Shown piece by piece: positions 45,048 to 57,396 of a stretch of DNA of 64,000 nt (the stretch's first letter is position 1; each line of letters opens with the position of its first letter). The stretch is from Streptomyces showdoensis (GTDB lineage Bacteria; Actinomycetota; Actinomycetes; Streptomycetales; Streptomycetaceae). The notes under the pieces were generated by a model that was not told where the DNA came from, did not search any database, and saw nothing but the letters and a program-made list of their open reading frames with translations. The stretch lies in assembly GCF_039535475.1 (NCBI RefSeq), contig NZ_BAAAXG010000004.1, positions 124,001 through 188,000 of the forward strand, given 5' to 3'. The position numbers were made by a program, and so were the translations under genes.

Positions 45048-45713
45048 ATGAGAGTCCGGATCGGGTACGTGGCATGGATCGTCGGCGCGGTGCAGTTCTT
45101 CGTCGTGCACGTGGTGGCGCAGTCGGCCTGGGCCAGGCCGTACAGCTGGGCGCACAACAACATCAGCGACCTCGGGAACGCGCACTGCGCCCTGCAAGCG
45201 GAGCCCGAGCCGCGGTTCGTCTGCTCCCCTGAACACGGCCTGATGAACGTCTCGTTCGTCACCCTGGGCGTCCTGCTGGTCGCCGGCGCCGCCCTGACCG
45301 GTGGCGCCGCCCTGTGGCGCGGCGGACGGACGGCCGCGACGGCCCGTCTGCTGCTCGCCGCGGCCGGGGCGGGATTCGTGCTCGTCGGACTCGCCCCCGC
45401 GGACGTCGACGAGAACCTGCACGTCCTGGGCGCCCTCCTCGTCATGGCGATGGGCAACATCGGCCTGTTCCTCGCCGGGTTCGCCCTCGCGGAACGCACA
45501 CCGGCCGCGCTGCGGCGGGGCACGAGCCTGCTGGGGGCCCTGGCGATCACGGCCTTCGGGCTCTTCCTCTCCCGCCACTACCTCGGTCTCGGCATGGGAG
45601 GCATGGAGCGGGTCGCCGCGTTCCCGCTCCTGCTCTGGGCGGCGGCCGTCGGTGTCCTCGGGTTCAGCCGAGGAGACCGAGCCGCGGTCCGCCTCCGTCG
45701 TGCAGCCGCCTGA
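45048..45713 (+). CDS. DUF998-family membrane protein
   Basis: A 221-residue protein with six predicted transmembrane helices. The first loop has YSWAHNNISDLGNAHC, the DUF998 landmark (N-x-I-S-D-L). Later helices include FVTLGVLLVAGAALTGGAAL and VLGALLVMAMGNIGLFLAGF. Function unknown. The ATG 45048 has GGAGGG eight bases upstream. Its last 50 bases overlap the 3' end of the lanthipeptide synthetase gene on the other strand. Confidence 0.8.
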   Translation: MRVRIGYVAWIVGAVQFFVVHVVAQSAWARPYSWAHNNISDLGNAHCALQAEPEPRFVCSPEHGLMNVSFVTLGVLLVAGAALTGGAALWRGGRTAATARLLLAAAGAGFVLVGLAPADVDENLHVLGALLVMAMGNIGLFLAGFALAERTPAALRRGTSLLGALAITAFGLFLSRHYLGLGMGGMERVAAFPLLLWAAAVGVLGFSRGDRAAVRLRRAAA

Positions 45714-48316
45714 AGAAGGCCAGCACGCCCGCGGAACCGCCGGCCCAGGTGGCGCTCGACCGGGCGAGACCGGTGTCCGGGAACACGGGCCGTGACCAGC
45801 TGCCGCCGCTCCGGCTCAGGATGAGCACGGCGACGGTCTCGGCCGCCTCCCGGAACTCCTCGGACCCGGAGGCCTCGGCGAGGTCCACCATCAGTTCGCC
45901 CACCCCGGCCAGTCCGCAGCACTGCGTGACCAGCGGCATCCGCGGTGCCAGCGCGGCGCAGGCGTGGGCGGCCCGCTCGGCGAGTTCCAGGTACGCGGGT
46001 TCGCCGAGGACCTGGGAGGCCCGGACGAGGACGGTTCCGATGCCCGCGAGACCCCGGCACCACGAGCCGTAGCGGCGCGTCGCCCCCGGCGCGGCGGCCG
46101 CCGCGAAGAGGTCCGGCGTCACGGCGGCCAGGCGCGCGGCGGCCCGCTCGGCGCGGCGGATCGCGTCCGGATCACCCGTCTCGGCCGCGTACGCCAGCAG
46201 GAAGCAGACGATGCCCGCCTCGCCGTGCGCGAGGCCCTCGCGCAGCGCGGCGCTGCCCGCGGTGTCCGGACCGGCCGGGGCGAGCCGGGCGGTGCCCGAT
46301 GCCAGCATCCGGTCGCAGTCCGCCGCGACGGCGAGGTGCCGGTCCGCGGCGTCCGGGCGACCGGACCGGAGCGCGTGCCGGGCGAGCAGCAGCCGGCCGA
46401 GCCCGATCCCGGCGGCCCCCGCGATCAGGTCCGCCTCCGGGGGGCCGCCGTCCGGCGCGCGGTCGGGCAGGGCGGGGTACGGGGAGGTCGCCCCCCGGCC
46501 CGGCCTCGGGCCCCGTCCCCGGCCCCGCCTCCGCGAGGAAGAGTTCGACGCCGGTGTGTCCGGTGTAGAAGGCGGGCGGCAGCTTCCTGGACTGAGCCGC
46601 CGTCCAGCGCGCCAGGGCGGCGACGGCCGAGCGCACGTGGGGCCGGTGGACGTGATGGAGGAGTTCCAGCCCGAGTCCCGAACTGCCGCCGTAGACGTCG
46701 ATCGAGGTGGGTACGTTCAGCCGTGCGGCCCGTTCGGGGTCCACGATCGCCTGTGCCTCGTCGACGCAGTAGGCGGTCGTGTGCGCGATGATCTCGTCCA
46801 GCAGGTCGCCGTCGATCCGGGGGAGCGCGGGCCGGGGTGCGGTTCCGGTGGTGCCGGTGCGCAGGCGGTCGGCGGCGGCGGTCCGTACGGCCGGGTCGAA
46901 GTCGAGCAGACCGGTGATCGAGGACCGGATGTCCCGGTGGGCGCGTCCGGGCAGCGCCTGCGCCAGGCAGGCCAGGGTCCGGTCCCGGTTGACCTCGCGG
47001 TCGGTGTCGACGATCACCGGGTCCAGGCCGGTGGCGGCGAAGAAGAGGGTGGCGCCGAGGGCGTAGTGGTCGTCGGCGGGGGCGGCCGGTCCGGTCGCGC
47101 TCAGGACGGGCCCGCCGTATCCGGGGGTCGCCCCTCCCGGACCGGTGCCGTCCCGTTCGCTGATCCCGAAGTCGATCAGGTGGCAGCGTCCGGCGCCCGA
47201 GTCGTCGAGCACGACGTTGTCGGGCTTGAGGTCGCGGACGACCACGCCCCGCTCGTGGATCGCGTCCAGGACCCGCAGGAGCCGGGAGGCGAGGACGGAC
47301 AGGGCGCGCGCCGGACGGCCGCCGTCGTCGCGGTAGGGGCCGTCGCGCAGCACGTCCTTGCGCAGGTCCCGGTCGCCGCACGCGCTCATGACCAGGTACT
47401 CGTCCGTCCGGTGCGCGAAGTAGTCCAGGGCGCGGGGGACGCCGGTCACTCCGTCGAGCGCGGTGAGGACCATGCGCTCGTTGCGCAGCCGGTGGCGGGA
47501 GTCCGTACCGGATGCGTCCTCGCCCACGAAGGCCCTGGCCTGTTTGACCACCACCGGCAGCCCGAGGGTGCGGTCGACCGCGCGGTAGACGTTGCCGCCG
47601 GGCGAGCGCGCGATGCCGGAGGTGACCGTGTAGCGTCCGCCGCCGAAGCCCGGCGCGGACCGTCCGCCGGCGGGACCGCCGCCCGGCCTGTCGCCCGCCC
47701 CGTCGCCTGGTTCGCGGCCCGGCCTGTCGCCTGGTTCGCCGCCCGGCCCGTCGCCCGACTTGCCGCCCGACCCGCGGCCCGCCGTCGTGAAGGGGTCCTC
47801 GGCCCAGGGCGGGCACCGGTAGCGGCCGGCGGCCAGGCCGTCGAAGACCTCTCCGTCGGGCCCGGTCATGACGGATTCGAGCCGTCCGCTCCGCCCGGTC
47901 CGGTACTCGCCCGTGAACGGGCCGTAGCGGTAATAGACCGGAGCCCTCGGGTCGACCCGCCGGTCGCTGACGACCTGCGGGCCTTCCCGGTCGCGCAGTA
48001 CGGCGGCGAGTTCCCGTGCGACGTCGACCACGGTGCCGTCGAGCGGATAGACGGTGATCGCCTTGCCGACGGCTCCGGCGCTCACCGCACCGGAGTTGAG
48101 ACGGCGCAGCGTCTCCGGATCACGTGCGAACTTCGCGTGACAGACGTGCCGCGCCAGCACCGGCAGGACGAGCCGGACCACCGCGTCGAGGTCGCCGGGA
48201 CGCGCCGATACGTGCAGCTTCCAGCCGTGTTCCATCGCCGGCATGCGTGGATCGTTCAGATACGACCACGTGTCATCGGCCCCACCAATGCGGCCGGTGA
48301 TGGAAACGGCGGTCAC
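45664..48316 (-). pseudogene. class IV lanthipeptide synthetase (LanL), one frameshift at a homopolymer
   Basis: A protein of about 883 residues when read through. An N-terminal phospho-Ser/Thr lyase domain (about 1-210) includes MEHGWKLHVSARPGDLDAVV. A kinase domain has RYTVTSGIARSPGGNVYRAV, VVRDLKPDN near 360 and LIDFGISE near 380. A C-terminal LanC-like cyclase domain has SWCRG near 751 and TQCCG near 799. Class III enzymes lack these zinc ligands, so this is class IV. It should phosphorylate, eliminate and cyclise Ser/Thr and Cys of the precursor. CCG in place of the usual CHG suggests three Cys zinc ligands. The frame breaks at 46491-46496 (six C on the plus strand); dropping one base restores GATSPYPALPDRAPDGGPPE and ADLIAGAAGIGLGRLLLARH. 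The GTG start lies two bases after the precursor stop. Confidence 0.85.
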
Positions 48317-48318
48317 CG

Positions 48319-48501
48319 TTAGGAGTTCAGATCACAGGCGAAGCGGGTGGTGGCGGTGACCCACGGGTCGGCGAGACACGCCGAGTACTCACGGTCGCTG
48401 CGGTCGTCGTCCTCGAACGCGATCGCCTCGTCGTCGATCTCCAGCGGACCCGCGTCGCGGAATCCGTCGATCTCCAGAACATCCTGCACGGCTACGGGCA
48501 T
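48319..48501 (-). CDS. class IV lanthipeptide precursor peptide
   Basis: A 60-residue peptide directly upstream of the synthetase gene. The first 39 residues are an acidic leader (VLEIDGFRDAGPLEIDDEAI, then AFEDDDRSDREY), typical of LanA peptides. The C-terminal part, SACLADPWVTATTRFACDLN plus Ser60, carries Ser40, Thr49, Thr51, Thr52 and Ser60 with Cys42 and Cys57, enough for two thioether rings. The exact cleavage site is not visible. The ATG 48501 has GGAGG seven bases upstream, and a good promoter lies 90 bases further up. The TAA stop is two bases before the synthetase start, so the pair is coupled. No transporter or protease gene is adjacent. Confidence 0.8.
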   Translation of the reverse strand: MPVAVQDVLEIDGFRDAGPLEIDDEAIAFEDDDRSDREYSACLADPWVTATTRFACDLNS

Positions 48502-49048: not shown

Positions 49049-49846
49049 TCAGGGGGCCCAGGGCAGGCGCACCGCCTCGATCTCGGGGTCGGTCAGCAGC
49101 GCCTCGATCAGGGCGGGCGGGCCGGCGACCTTGGTGGCCCAGAGGTCGTAGTCGGTGCACAGGACCCATGAGCGGTCCCGGGCCCAGAGGTTGGAGGGGC
49201 TGAAGTCGGCCGCGGGATTGTCATAGAGCGGCCCGGCGTCGCCCAGTCGGCCGGCCTGTACGCGGAGCTCGTCGAAGTCGACGGTCGCGAGCATCAACGG
49301 GTTGTAGTAGGCCAGGCAGGAGGTGCCCGGGCCGGCGGGGCTCTGCTCGGTCAGGACCGCGATCAGCCTGTTCCAGGTGTCGCGGTCCAGGCTTCCCTCG
49401 GTGGGCGGGACGATGCCCAGGGGCCAGCTGCCGGCCCGCTTGGCGGAGGGGAAGCAGCGGTAGGAGGGCAGCAGGCCTTCGGGCACGAGGGGGTCGCCGG
49501 TGCGGCGGGCGAGTTCGGCCCAGCGCAGCCGCCGCCAGCCGGGGCCGGGGTGCTCCGCGCGGCCCAGGCCGCCTCCCGTGGCGACGCCCACGTCGAGGTC
49601 GATGCCCGCGAAGGAGGCGGGCCGGAGGGTCCCGTCCGCCAGGCGGGCCTGCCGGTGCTCGTGGTACGACAGGTCGGCCGGGCCCCGCTCGTGCTCGTAC
49701 ATGGCGTGGAGCACCCAGGCCGCGTCGGGCGTCGCGGGGGGCATGAAGCCGGTCGTGCCGTCGCCGCACAGGTCCCGGAGCCAGCCGGTCTCTTCGGACG
49801 GGGCGTGCGGCCACGTGGCCGACACCGGGTTCGTTTCTTGGGGCAT
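49049..49846 (-). CDS. hypothetical protein, 265 residues
   Basis: A soluble protein without signal peptide or membrane helices. It is rich in Trp and Pro. Phrases such as LPSYRCFPSAKRAGSWPLGI, PTEGSLDRDTWNRLIAVLTE and WARDRSWVLCTDYDLWATKV look like a conserved Streptomyces family, but I cannot name it. The ending (LIEALLTDPEIEAVRLPWAP) recalls small immunity-like or SMI1-type proteins only loosely. The ATG 49846 has a weak ribosome-binding site. It separates the lanthipeptide locus from the glycosylated-product cluster. Confidence 0.55.
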   Translation of the reverse strand: MPQETNPVSATWPHAPSEETGWLRDLCGDGTTGFMPPATPDAAWVLHAMYEHERGPADLSYHEHRQARLADGTLRPASFAGIDLDVGVATGGGLGRAEHPGPGWRRLRWAELARRTGDPLVPEGLLPSYRCFPSAKRAGSWPLGIVPPTEGSLDRDTWNRLIAVLTEQSPAGPGTSCLAYYNPLMLATVDFDELRVQAGRLGDAGPLYDNPAADFSPSNLWARDRSWVLCTDYDLWATKVAGPPALIEALLTDPEIEAVRLPWAP

Positions 49847-53228: not shown

Positions 53229-54038
53229 ATGCTGACGACCGCCTGTCTGACGGAGCAGGGCCACCCCGACGAGGAGGCCCTCCGCCACTACCGCGACCAG
53301 GGCTTCGTCCACTTCCGGGCGGTGCTCTCCGCCGAGGAGGTGGCCGACTACCGCGCCGCCGCCGAGGAACTCCTCGACAAGGAGGGCCCCGAGACCTGGG
53401 GCGCCTCCGAGGCGGAGACCCAGGTCCACTACGTGGAGGCCGCCTGGCGCAAGCACCCCGCGCTGCGCCGTCTGGCCCTCCACCCCGTGGTGACCCGGGC
53501 CGCCGAACTCCTGGCCGGCGGGCCGCTGCGCCTCTACGGCACCGACGTCCTCAAGAAGGAACCCCACGTCCACCTGCCCACCGTCGTCCACGACGACGAA
53601 CCGGGCCTGCCGCTCGCCGGGCTGACCCGCACCCTCACCGTGTGGATCCCCCTCGTGGACGTGCCCGCCGACCGGGGCTCCCTGATCTACGTCCCCGGCT
53701 CGCACCGCCGCCCGCCGGAGCACCGCCAGGTCCATCTGGCCGGCTTCCAGGACTACCGGCCGATGGAGGAGGTCTGGCCGGACTTCCCGTTCAGCCCCAG
53801 GACGGCCGTCCCCATGCGCGCCGGCGACATCGTCTTCCACGACTTCCGCACCGTCCACATGGCGGGGGTCAACACGGACGGCGAACGCCGACTCGCCTTC
53901 GCCGCCGTCTACATGGACTCCGACGCCACCTACCGCCCCGGCGTCCAGGACCATCCGGTCGCCCATCTGCGGCCGGGCGCCCCGGTCGACGGCGAACTGT
54001 TCCCCCTCATCGCCCCCGGACCCGGAGCCGAGGCGTGA
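53229..54038 (+). CDS. phytanoyl-CoA-dioxygenase-family Fe(II)/2-oxoglutarate enzyme
   Basis: A 269-residue oxygenase. N-terminal landmark ALRHYRDQGFVHFRAVLSAE. The iron triad is in VVHDDEPGLP (His-x-Asp) and the distal His of FRTVHMAGVNTDGERR, whose Arg should bind 2-oxoglutarate. RGSLIYVPGSHRRPPEHRQV is also typical. PhyH enzymes in polyketide pathways hydroxylate, epimerise or form rings; SnoK and SnoN of nogalamycin are examples. The reaction here is unknown. The ATG 53229 follows GAGGGAAG. Its TGA overlaps the start of the P450-like gene. Confidence 0.85.
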   Translation: MLTTACLTEQGHPDEEALRHYRDQGFVHFRAVLSAEEVADYRAAAEELLDKEGPETWGASEAETQVHYVEAAWRKHPALRRLALHPVVTRAAELLAGGPLRLYGTDVLKKEPHVHLPTVVHDDEPGLPLAGLTRTLTVWIPLVDVPADRGSLIYVPGSHRRPPEHRQVHLAGFQDYRPMEEVWPDFPFSPRTAVPMRAGDIVFHDFRTVHMAGVNTDGERRLAFAAVYMDSDATYRPGVQDHPVAHLRPGAPVDGELFPLIAPGPGAEA

Positions 54039-55111
54039 GCACGGACCCGGCAGCCCCGACGGCCCTTACGGCCCCGGAGGACGGGGTGGACGGGGCGGAC
54101 CGCGTCGACCCGGCGGAGCTCGCGGAGCTCGGGGAACGGCTCCAGCGCGCGTACGGGACGCTGTGGCTGCACCGGCTGAAGGGCGACCCGTACGCCGCCC
54201 TCCTCTGCGACGTCGACGAGGACCCGGGCCCGCTGAAGGAGCGCGTCCGCGCAGCCGGACCCCTGTGGCGCTCCGGCCCCGGCCCCTGGGTCACCGCCGA
54301 CCCGGCCGTAGGCGCCGCCCTGCTCGCCCACCCCGGGACCGGGCACGAGCCCCTCCTCCCCGGCGAGCCCGCCCGGCCGTCCACGGCCCCCCTGCCCGTC
54401 CCCGACCTCGGCCCGCTGTGCGCCCGCCTGCTCGACGCGGCCGGAGCCGAGTTCGACCTGGTCGCCGACGTCGCCGAACCCCTGGCGGCGGGCGCCCTCG
54501 CCCGGGCCTGCGCCGTCCCGGAGGACGAGCACGGACGCTTCGCCGAGGCCCTCGCCGACTGCGGGACCGCCCTGGACGCGGTCGTGTGCCCGCAACGGCT
54601 CGCGACCGCCCGGCGCACCGGCCCCGCCCTCGACGTGCTGCGCTCCCTCCTCGGCGCCGCCCCCGGCGCGCCGGACCCGGCCGCGGTCGTGGCCGGCGCG
54701 CGTACCGGCGCCGACCTCGTCGCCCGCACCGTCCTCGGCGCCCGGCTGCCCCTGCCCGCCGGCCGGGCGGCCGCCACGGTCGACCGGGCCCTCGACACCG
54801 GGCCGCCGGTGCGGATCGCCCCGCTCGTGGCCCACGCCGACATCGAGCTCGCGGGCGCCCGGATCGCGGCCGGCGAGCGGCTCGCGGTCCTGCTCGACGA
54901 CGGCCCCGAGCCTCCCGTGCTCCGGGCCACGGCCCCGCTCCGGCGCGCGATGGCGGAGAGCCTCCTCGCGGCCCTGGCGGACCGGTACACCGGACTGAGC
55001 CCCACCGCCCCGGCGGTACGCCGCCCCCGGGCACCGCTGACCCGGGGCCCCGCCCGGGTCCCCCTGCGGGCGACCGCCGCCCCGGGCGCGAGGAGGACGG
55101 GAGAACGATGA
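54035..55111 (+). CDS. cytochrome-P450-like glycosyltransferase activator (no haem ligand)
   Basis: A 358-residue protein with the helical layout of DesVIII, EryCII, AknT and DnrQ. It has the N-terminal GTLWLHRLKGDPYAALLCDV and ARTGADLVARTVLGARLPLP, but no FxxGxHxCxG haem loop and no Cys ligand, so it is not an oxygenase. Such proteins bind and activate a DesVII/EryCIII-type glycosyltransferase. It overlaps the dioxygenase stop (GTGA) and its own stop overlaps the next glycosyltransferase start (ATGA). This identifies GT2 as its partner. It is shorter than the usual 400-430 residues. Confidence 0.85.
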   Translation: MSTDPAAPTALTAPEDGVDGADRVDPAELAELGERLQRAYGTLWLHRLKGDPYAALLCDVDEDPGPLKERVRAAGPLWRSGPGPWVTADPAVGAALLAHPGTGHEPLLPGEPARPSTAPLPVPDLGPLCARLLDAAGAEFDLVADVAEPLAAGALARACAVPEDEHGRFAEALADCGTALDAVVCPQRLATARRTGPALDVLRSLLGAAPGAPDPAAVVAGARTGADLVARTVLGARLPLPAGRAAATVDRALDTGPPVRIAPLVAHADIELAGARIAAGERLAVLLDDGPEPPVLRATAPLRRAMAESLLAALADRYTGLSPTAPAVRRPRAPLTRGPARVPLRATAAPGARRTGER

Positions 55112-56422
55112 GGGTCCTGTTCAGCTCCCTGGAGGGCAGCCACTTCCAGCTGCTCGCCCCCCCTGGCCTGGGCCCTGCGCACCGCGGGGCACGAGGTGCG
55201 CGCCGCCTGCGTCCCGGGCGTGGTCGAGACGGTCACCCGGACGGGCATCACGGCCGTCCCGCTGGACAGCCCGCCCTGGTACGAAGGGCTGGAGGACTTC
55301 CACAAGGAGGCCATCGCCCACTTCGGCACGGCCGACCAGGACCCCGACCGGGCCCCCGACGCCGGAACGGACCCGGACCGGGAGGGCGGCTGGGCGGACC
55401 AGCTCGGCTACGAGAGCGTCATCGTCCCCGCCCTCAACTCCCGCCTCAACTCCGACCGGTTGATCGACGAACTGGTCGCCTTCGCCCGCCACTGGCGGCC
55501 CGACCTGGTCATCTGGGAGACGCTCTGCCTGGCCGGACCCGTCGCGGCGCTCACCGTCGGCGCCGCGCACGCCCGCCTGGTCTCCGGACCGGAACTCGCC
55601 ATGCAGCTCGGCACCCGACGGTCCTTCCTGCGGCTCGCCGCCGAACAGCCGCCCGAGCACCGCGAGGACCCCACCGCGGAATGGATCGACCGGACGCTGG
55701 AACGCCTCGGCGCCGGAGCCCGCTTCGACGAGTCGGTGCTCACCGGGCAGTGGACCGTCGACACCCGCCCCGCGAGCCTGCGCGAGGACCTGGGCCTGAC
55801 CGTCGTGCCCGCCCGCTACATCCCGTACAACGGGCGCTCGGCGGTGCCCCGCTGGCTCCGCGAACCGCCCGCGCGGCCCCGGGTCTGCGTCACCCTCGGC
55901 GTGAGCATCGACAGCGGCTACGGCCTCTGGGACCTCGACACCGTCCTCGTCGGCATGCTGGACGCCCTCGCCGGGCTGGACGTCGAGGTCGTCGCCGCCC
56001 TCTCCGAACGGCAGCGCGCCCACCTGCCGCCGCTCCCCGACACCGTCCGGGTCGTGGACCACGTGCCGATGCACGACCTGCTGCCGACCTGCGCGGCCGT
56101 CGTCCACCACGGCGGCTACCAGACCAAGGCCACCGCGGAGTTCCACGGCGTGCCCCAGGTCCTCCTCACCGGCTGGGAGTGGGTCACCGAATCCATGGGC
56201 GCCGCCTACGAGAAGCAGGGCAACCTCCTCTCCCTGCCGCTGCGGGAGTTCACCCCCGACCGCTTCCGCGAGAAGGTCGCGACGGTGCTGGGGGACCCGT
56301 CGTACGCCGCGCACGCCCGGCGGCTGCGGCGGGAGACCGAGGAGATGCCGACGCCCAACGAGGCCGTCGCCGCCATCGAGCGGCTCACGGCCCTGCACCG
56401 GAAGGAACGGCGAGGAACATGA
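55108..56422 (+). pseudogene. glycosyltransferase 2 (GT2), partner of the P450-like activator; one frameshift at a C7 run
   Basis: Starts at ATG 55108 in an ATGA overlap with MRVLFSSLEGSHFQLLAP. It leaves frame at 55157-55163, seven C. Dropping one C gives LLAPLAWALRTAGHEVRAAC and a full-length protein of about 437 residues. Later landmarks are ARHWRPDLVIWETLCLAGPV, RYIPYNGRSAVPRWLREPP, VCVTLGVSIDSGYGLWD and VVHHGGYQTKATAEFHGVPQ. Members that need a P450-like helper usually transfer an aminodeoxysugar, which agrees with the DesVI-like gene in the same operon. The fault lies 50 bases into the gene and matches two others in the window, so I think the protein is functional. Confidence 0.85.
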
Positions 56423-57396
56423 GGCTCACGGAGATCCTGGCGGAGCTGGAACGCTACCTGGACGACGACGCCCCCCAGGTGAGCCTCCCCCCGGCGGCCT
56501 TCACCTCACCGGAGCTGTGGGAGGCGGAACGGGAGCTGGTCCTCGCCCGGTCCTGGCTGCTCGCCGCCCACGCGGACCAACTGGCCGGGCCCGGCGCGAG
56601 CGTGACCCTCGCGCCGGCCGGCCGGCCCGTCACGGTGACCCGGGAGCCGGACGGCACCCTGCGCGCCCGGTCCGCCCTCGGCCCGCACCGGCCGACTCCG
56701 GCGGTGGAGGAGTGGCGGGGCCTCGTCTTCCTCAACCCCGACGGGACCGCCGAGCCGCTGGCACCGCACCTGCGGCGGACCGGCGAGGAACTCACGGCCT
56801 ACCGGCTGTCCGAGATGACACAGGTCGCCTCCTGGACCGAGGAGTGGCGGTGCAATTGGAAGATCGCCGTGCAGAACGCCCACGAGAACTACCACGCCAT
56901 GGGGCTCCATCCCACCACGGTGGCCCTGATCACCCCGCCCGGCGGCGCCATGGAGGTCCGGACCGAGACCCGCTGGGTCACCCGGCTGCTCAGCCCGTTC
57001 CGTGAACCCCTCGCCGCCACGGCGCTGCCGCTCGACGCGGACCAGCGGGCGACCATGTACAACTGCGCGGTCTTCCCCTGCGGCAGCCTCGCCGCCTTCG
57101 GCGACTCCGTCGTCTGGATCACGATGATCCCGCTGGCCGTCGACCGGGTCGAGGTCCGCGGCGGGGTGCTCATGCACCCCGCCGCCCTGGCCGGTCTGGA
57201 CCAGGATGCCCTCGACGAACAGTTCGCCGAGCTCGCGGCGGGTGCCGAGGTGGTCAACCGGGAGGACCGCGTCGGCATGGAGGCGGTCCAGCGGGTGGCC
57301 GGCTCCCGCTTCGCCGCACGCGGGCACCTCTCGCCGAAGGAACCCGGGGTGACGGCCTTCTACCGCGCCCTCGCCCGGTCCCTCACGGCCCCCTGA
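56419..57396 (+). CDS. Rieske-oxygenase paralogue lacking the [2Fe-2S] site
   Basis: A 325-residue protein clearly homologous to the Rieske enzyme at 49995-51134 along its whole length, but about 49 residues are missing. Gly88 stands where Cys88 should be (ALGPHRPTPA against TVCRHRLMPV). The segment with the second Cys-x2-His pair is deleted, joining directly to VEEWRGLVFLN. The mononuclear iron motif is kept: Glu156-x2-His159-x4-His164 in NAHENYHAMGLH. The C-terminal RGHLSPKEPGV is identical. So it cannot carry its own cluster but may still bind iron. It overlaps GT2 in an ATGA. It may take electrons from the complete paralogue or have a new, non-redox role. Confidence 0.85.
   Translation: MRLTEILAELERYLDDDAPQVSLPPAAFTSPELWEAERELVLARSWLLAAHADQLAGPGASVTLAPAGRPVTVTREPDGTLRARSALGPHRPTPAVEEWRGLVFLNPDGTAEPLAPHLRRTGEELTAYRLSEMTQVASWTEEWRCNWKIAVQNAHENYHAMGLHPTTVALITPPGGAMEVRTETRWVTRLLSPFREPLAATALPLDADQRATMYNCAVFPCGSLAAFGDSVVWITMIPLAVDRVEVRGGVLMHPAALAGLDQDALDEQFAELAAGAEVVNREDRVGMEAVQRVAGSRFAARGHLSPKEPGVTAFYRALARSLTAP

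Follow-up and report, generated by a model that had tools for sequence, protein, structure and literature searches.

A Rieske oxygenase paralogue without a Rieske cluster and its complete sister, a possible electron donor, in a putative anthracycline gene cluster of Streptomyces showdoensis

We analysed a stretch of 64,000 nucleotides from Streptomyces showdoensis (contig NZ_BAAAXG010000004.1, positions 124,001 to 188,000), hereafter called the window, which contains two related Rieske oxygenase (RO) genes. The open reading frame (ORF) named B (forward strand, 325 amino acids, aa) encodes an RO alpha-type subunit without a Rieske cluster, and the ORF named A (reverse strand, 379 aa) encodes its complete paralogue (coordinates in Table 1). 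Such a pair had been proposed in the original prediction, made from the letters of the window, and the Pfam searches, the identity between the two proteins and the family of homologues described below all confirmed it. By BLASTP A and B were identical at 187 of 372 positions (50%), in an alignment spanning residues 1-369 of A. Both the ring-hydroxylase catalytic domain PF00848 (1.7e-24) and the Rieske domain PF00355 (4.2e-19) were found in A, which carries the Rieske motif and the mononuclear iron motif in one chain. In B, PF00848 was detected at 3.2e-23 and PF00355 stayed below threshold (14.8 bits, cut-off 20.3). B has the fold of an RO alpha subunit; the AlphaFold2 models reached a predicted local distance difference test score (pLDDT) of 92.7 and a predicted template modelling score (pTM) of 0.92 for A, and a pLDDT of 90.4 and a pTM of 0.90 for B. 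Beside A, a 265 aa ORF at 49049-49846 (reverse strand) gave no Pfam match at 1e-5.

Compared with A, exactly 49 codons are missing from B, where about 49 residues had been predicted. The lost block is flanked by two in-frame V-E-E motifs and includes the second Cys-x2-His loop. C88 of A corresponds to G88 in B, and B therefore lacks the Rieske motif C-x-H ... C-x2-H, with H90 still present in the protein of the window. The iron motif E-x2-H-x4-H is intact as predicted (E156, H159, H164) and D283 is kept, so that B retains, as read from its sequence, a 2-His-1-carboxylate mononuclear iron site (H159, H164, D283). Among the closest solved structures to both proteins were the Group V enzymes CntA (carnitine monooxygenase) and Stc2 (stachydrine demethylase), which are alpha3 trimers. 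CntA, Stc2, A and B have the bridging Glu in common, although B has no cluster of its own; in CntA this residue is E205, described as carrying electrons in from the Rieske cluster of the neighbour, and Y203 as binding the ammonium group of the substrate (PMC7948474; here and below, papers are cited for passages from them). As the position of Y203 is occupied by Ala in A and in B, which sets them apart from the quaternary-ammonium enzymes of Group V, a quaternary ammonium substrate is unlikely.

The cluster-less form was found in 13 of 78 database homologues (P0001-P0012 and P0015; 322-325 aa, PF00848 only), which are 59-95% identical to B and whose named sources are Streptomyces, Kitasatospora and Actinomadura. 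P0066 and P0067, which are partial, and P0078, a distant protein with PF00848 only, were left out of this count. With 13 homologues of the same form B is no sequencing error, and the possibility that resequencing would restore the 49 codons has become very unlikely. In an alignment of B with the 13 homologues the position of Cys88 was Gly in 14 of 14 proteins, and that of H90 was His in nine, Arg in four and a gap in one. H159, H164, D283, E156, N146, N153, Y158 and Q291 were invariant in all 14, D283 also in a 57-row alignment. That the electron-acceptor Glu is kept throughout favours a feeding of B by the cluster of a neighbouring subunit. B could instead perform iron chemistry without Rieske electrons, for instance by means of a different reductant, or by using the START-like fold for a redox-neutral isomerase or cyclase reaction; this would agree with the loss of the cluster in the whole set of 14 and with the muconolactone-isomerase-like and SnoaL-like proteins encoded within the gene cluster. 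It leaves the conserved bridging Glu unexplained, as well as the Rieske domains retained by the complete counterparts of B described below, and we regard it as improbable.

To describe selection we used the ratio of nonsynonymous to synonymous substitution rates (dN/dS, Nei-Gojobori). Over the whole gene, 15 Streptomyces/Kitasatospora pairs gave 0.21-0.38 for B and 0.10-0.19 for A. By region, in the same 15 pairs, the iron and bridge segment (residues 139-170) gave 0.05 in B as in A, and residues 1-40 were similar as well (0.30 and 0.33). In contrast, the remnant Rieske segment (41-81) reached 0.67 in B vs 0.14 in A, and residues 106-138 reached 0.64 vs 0.21. These segments are short and the ratios rough, yet the contrast is large; the remnant Rieske segment of B is relaxed and its iron site is strongly selected. 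The catalytic domain of B, at 0.19, is under purifying selection. A gene decaying on its way out would show the elevated ratios of the N-terminal remnant, but B has an intact reading frame in the window, the 13 related proteins and a selected catalytic domain. Its start codon overlaps the stop codon of the preceding glycosyltransferase gene (ATGA), and this start is kept in five of six related loci, the in-frame stop itself having been read in the window. We consider decay highly improbable. A sequencing error or a recent pseudogene was ruled out by the database proteins of the same form together with the selection on the catalytic domain. The relaxed segments would also be expected if B had no catalytic role and served A in a structural or regulatory way, similar to a beta subunit, its iron site being a relic or structural; beta subunits without catalytic centres have been described to support complex stability (PMC12445004). 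Against this stand the ratio of 0.05 in the iron-site segment and the ligands invariant in 14 of 14, and we judge such a role unlikely.

Searching other gene clusters for the same pair, a check that had been suggested with the original prediction, showed a complete A in seven of seven distinct genomes with a cluster-less B, counted after removal of genomes that appeared twice across samples, as recognised by identical contig positions. Holders of the pair include S. pseudovenezuelae and Streptomyces sp. NRRL S-337. Among 392 genomes of Streptomyces, the genus of the window, nine had a match at E <= 1e-50; five of these contained a cluster-less B, each with A nearby (5/5), and the other four a single complete RO. 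Cluster-less B was present in two genomes of a class sample (394 genomes), four of a family sample (394) and one of a second family sample (341), always with A; these three samples overlap partly in such genomes. In a collection of genome contigs, six of 23 distinct loci (L006-L011) had a cluster-less B, and in 6/6 a complete A was located on the opposite strand, with 4.3-5.6 kb separating A and B. The database proteins P0015 and P0028, whose contigs are equally long, suggest one further A-B pair on a single contig. Actinomadura sp. KC345 (L025, L065, G411/G1314) has A-type and B-type pieces and was left out of the seven, because contig ends cut both genes and the cluster status of its B is unreadable.

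Two genomes, those of Streptomyces nigrescens (L012) and Thermomonospora echinospora (L013), show a different arrangement: the RO gene that follows the 55196-type glycosyltransferase, i.e. at the place of B, is complete and keeps its Rieske domain, and besides this gene no second RO copy (A) was found in either genome at E <= 1e-40. Genes of the 57405 and 57743 types also follow the RO in L012; neither was matched in L013. The S. nigrescens protein (P0017; L012, 9998-11134) is publicly named 'diguanylate cyclase', apparently a misannotation. Conversely, Streptomyces glomeratus (L014) has a complete gene of the A lineage beside the 51273-type methyltransferase, and the sole other match in its genome was remote (4.9e-47).

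Two trees were calculated, the first from 72 of the 78 homologues (without P0070, P0073 and P0075-P0078) plus A and B of the window, the second from 54 rows chosen for synteny and lineage, with the Rieske columns removed. In the second tree the A lineage, to which L014 belongs, was set apart from the rest (98/93), and the B lineage was united (98/93), L012 and L013 falling on its side. From this tree and the synteny we concluded that in sister pathways each oxygenase exists in complete form by itself, and that B is cluster-less where A is also present. A single cluster-less clade was not rejected by the approximately unbiased (AU) test (p 0.29 in the first tree, 0.34 in the second), and the residues at the junction look alike across lineages by eye; a single loss is thus simpler than repeated independent losses, though not demonstrated. 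In A of the window both V-E-E motifs share the nine-mer GTGGAGGAG, likewise in five of the six relatives (not in L010). A deletion of the 49 codons between such direct repeats is a guess, because the repeat is only partial in the complete B-lineage genes L012 and L013. The N-termini of A and B were 78% identical within Actinomadura craniellae, compared with 50-71% across genomes, a possible trace of gene conversion between them; no such excess was seen in the other six genomes. In the second tree there is also a third lineage of complete Rieske oxygenases, whose genes stand immediately downstream of a MycE-like methyltransferase gene of the 64353 type in 8/8 loci from Nocardia, Micromonospora and Streptomyces (L016-L018, L021-L023, L026, L028).

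The explanation towards which we lean, with modest confidence, is that B works as an iron oxygenase subunit and receives its electrons from the Rieske cluster of A in a mixed trimer or higher assembly. A more specific form, which we hold somewhat tentatively, is a one-way redox heterotrimer, in which the complete subunit with the sole cluster would serve its own active site as well as that of the cluster-less paralogue. In mixed head-to-tail trimers the cluster of A would come to lie beside the iron of B, and electrons would pass via Glu156 of B. In an A2B ring one A would feed the other A, the second A would feed B and the contact from B would be silent, this silent side being the one where B has relaxed. 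A, still in possession of its own iron, would probably perform a second oxidation. As to how the pair arose, two lineages of oxygenases, which sister pathways contain singly and in complete form, may have met in one nogalamycin-type gene cluster, and B may then have lost the 49-codon block because the cluster of A could serve it.

Several points weigh against this explanation. We infer the physical complex between A and B, the electron route and the substrates (anthracycline ring or sugar), and that the complex has to be inferred counts on this side. The two genes lie on opposite strands with 5.3 kb between them in the window and are not one operon. Over the whole gene B has evolved about twice as fast as A, and in six pairs with Actinomadura dN/dS was 0.41-0.49 for B and 0.30-0.35 for A. 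E156 could be retained for structural reasons. The contrasting state is represented by no more than two B-lineage genomes without A, and the complete protein P0013 nests, unexplained, inside the cluster-less group (99/95 in the first tree, 93/93 in the second); its contig of 3,325 bases is too short to reveal the presence of A. In addition, at 55090-55260 the first approx. 20 codons (MRVLFSSLEGSHF...) of the glycosyltransferase gene before B lie in a different frame from the rest, separated from it by a run of C, and the same glycosyltransferase reads through without frame change in three relatives (L006, L007, L011). This apparent break may be an indel of the assembly or a true frameshift, and the latter could affect the translation of B if the two genes are coupled.

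Finally, 11 Rieske-domain matches, counting A, occur in the whole genome, and another donor is thus possible; three of the 11 are in open frames of 146-167 aa. B would then be catalytic and receive its electrons from some other cellular Rieske protein, e.g. a small Rieske-type ferredoxin docking at the site of the neighbour's cluster, and A would be a separate pathway enzyme. A Rieske-type ferredoxin of S. peucetius has been purified and studied as native redox partner for DoxA (PMC12979805), and for NdmC the electrons are believed to come from a Rieske cluster on another chain (PMC4408171). Such a donor would leave unexplained why A is present in all seven genomes with a cluster-less B, and why a complete counterpart of B occurs in both genomes in which no A was found. 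We consider it rather unlikely, if the least so of the alternatives. Above cut-off, a Rieske or ferredoxin domain was detected in A alone among the scanned proteins of the gene cluster (sets of 2, 10 and 30, partly overlapping, exclusive of the genes at 80935 and 87330 on the extended contig). These proteins included no ferredoxin-reductase-type, Rieske-bearing reductase or glutathione S-transferase (GST)-like one.

NdmC, the parallel named in the original prediction, holds in part. This subunit of the N7-demethylase NdmCDE from Pseudomonas putida CBB5 is described to have no own Rieske cluster, and is believed to draw on an additional one carried by the reductase NdmD (PMC4408171). Both NdmC and B are non-heme iron oxygenases without own cluster and with the iron site kept, in B as judged from its residues. 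The donor differs: the passages on NdmC name the extra cluster of NdmD, with the GST-like NdmE required, while the sole cluster found near B is on the complete catalytic paralogue A, and the scanned proteins comprise neither a Rieske-bearing reductase nor a GST-like partner. In the two-chain type of chlorophyllide a oxygenase (CAO) the partner chain carries only the Rieske centre, and each chain of the Micromonas enzyme reportedly keeps one centre (Kunugi, 2013). A, with its iron motif and PF00848, has both centres and is thus not of this type. In the passages cited, the CAO of Micromonas pusilla is one Rieske oxygenase distributed over two chains, for which a heterodimer was earlier suggested (PMC9615114), and NdmA and NdmB, two different RO alpha chains, assemble as alpha3-alpha-prime3 (PMC12445004). 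Each of the latter two has a Rieske cluster (PMC4408171), unlike B. A complete catalytic paralogue as donor to a cluster-less one was not found in these passages on NdmC, the Micromonas CAO and NdmA/NdmB. Nor was such a pair among the matches listed, judged by titles and starts of abstracts, in the open-licence PMC literature on Rieske proteins, anthracyclines, nogalamycin, type II polyketides, NdmC and cluster loss. Cluster-less oxygenases and two-chain ROs are already known; the present case differs from them by the complete catalytic paralogue as proposed donor.

If A does supply B, electron supply and catalysis would be separated within a Rieske oxygenase trimer, giving a natural test system for electron transfer between subunits in which, unlike in homotrimers, donor and acceptor are each single and defined. 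Two oxygenases that had evolved separately would have turned into a single enzyme with two reactions through the loss of one electron-transfer domain after meeting in one antibiotic pathway, a route to a second pathway oxidation without a second redox chain. A domain lost where the partner is present and kept where the partner was not found would clearly exemplify how dependence evolves between paralogues. It would also be a warning for annotation, as 'SRPBCC family proteins' in antibiotic gene clusters can be oxygenases.

Table 1. Features of the window around the cluster-less subunit B and its paralogue A.
Feature	Position	Strand	Evidence
B: RO alpha-type subunit without Rieske cluster, 325 aa	56419..57396	+	ORF calling, Pfam, homologue family, AlphaFold2
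A: complete RO paralogue of B, proposed electron donor, 379 aa	49995..51134	-	BLASTP, Pfam, AlphaFold2
Degenerate first C-x-H site (G88-P-H-R) and deletion junction between two V-E-E motifs	56680..56715	+	A-B alignment
E156 (corresponding to CntA bridging Glu205), iron ligands H159 and H164	56884..56910	+	read from sequence; CntA alignment
D283, carboxylate iron ligand	57265..57267	+	read from sequence; conserved across alignments
S-adenosylmethionine (SAM) methyltransferase, divergent neighbour of A in window and L006-L011	51273..51986	+	synteny, family search
Glycosyltransferase, between A and B in window and L006-L011	52042..53193	+	synteny, family search
SnoK homologue (PhyH-type Fe/2-oxoglutarate oxygenase)	53229..54038	+	5epa, E 6e-98; PhyH match
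P450-derived glycosyltransferase activator	54035..55111	+	TIGR04515, 228 bits, below curated cut-off 343
Activator-dependent glycosyltransferase, start uncertain, stop overlapping start of B	55196..56422	+	family search
Muconolactone-isomerase-like protein, next to B in window and L006-L011	57405..57707	-	synteny, family search

The genes between A and B are largely the same in L006-L011: the methyltransferase (51273), a putative sugar N,N-dimethyltransferase, both glycosyltransferases (52042 and 55196) and the SnoK homologue (53229) were present in 6/6, and the P450-type activator (54035) was matched in 5/6, not in L010. Behind B, the gene for the muconolactone-isomerase-like protein (57405) was found in 6/6. 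Gene calling on the extended contig showed that the gene cluster continues beyond the end of the window. By family searches it contains two ketosynthase-type genes, an acyl carrier protein, polyketide cyclases and a ketoreductase-type short-chain dehydrogenase/reductase. Five glycosyltransferases, the P450-derived activator, a second P450-like gene, nucleoside diphosphate (NDP)-sugar genes and a DrrA-like transporter are also present, as are homologues of AknOx (2ipi, 1.9e-163) and of a nitrososynthase (DnmZ 4zxv, 2.2e-135).

The original prediction had placed the pair in a glycosylated natural-product pathway, which agrees with these genes. Type II polyketide synthase (PKS) genes occur together with a SnoK-type Fe/2-oxoglutarate oxygenase, and the pathway looks like a nogalamycin-type anthracycline cluster. 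The SnoK, AknOx and nitrososynthase homologues point to a putative anthracycline of the nogalamycin type that bears an oxidised sugar besides an amino or nitro sugar. In the literature on nitro-sugar anthracyclines this gene cluster was not named among the matches listed. A mycothiol-dependent nitroreductase-like gene (PF22234; G000:C4:191472-192089 of the extended contig) lies in the same gene cluster as the nitrososynthase homologue and is possibly linked to nitro-sugar chemistry.

On the reverse strand, the region 45664-48501 contains a short acidic peptide (48319-48501) and a kinase-like ORF (46172-48316), with a cyclase-like end that seemingly continues in another frame (45664-46308). We take this locus to resemble class III/IV lanthipeptide loci.
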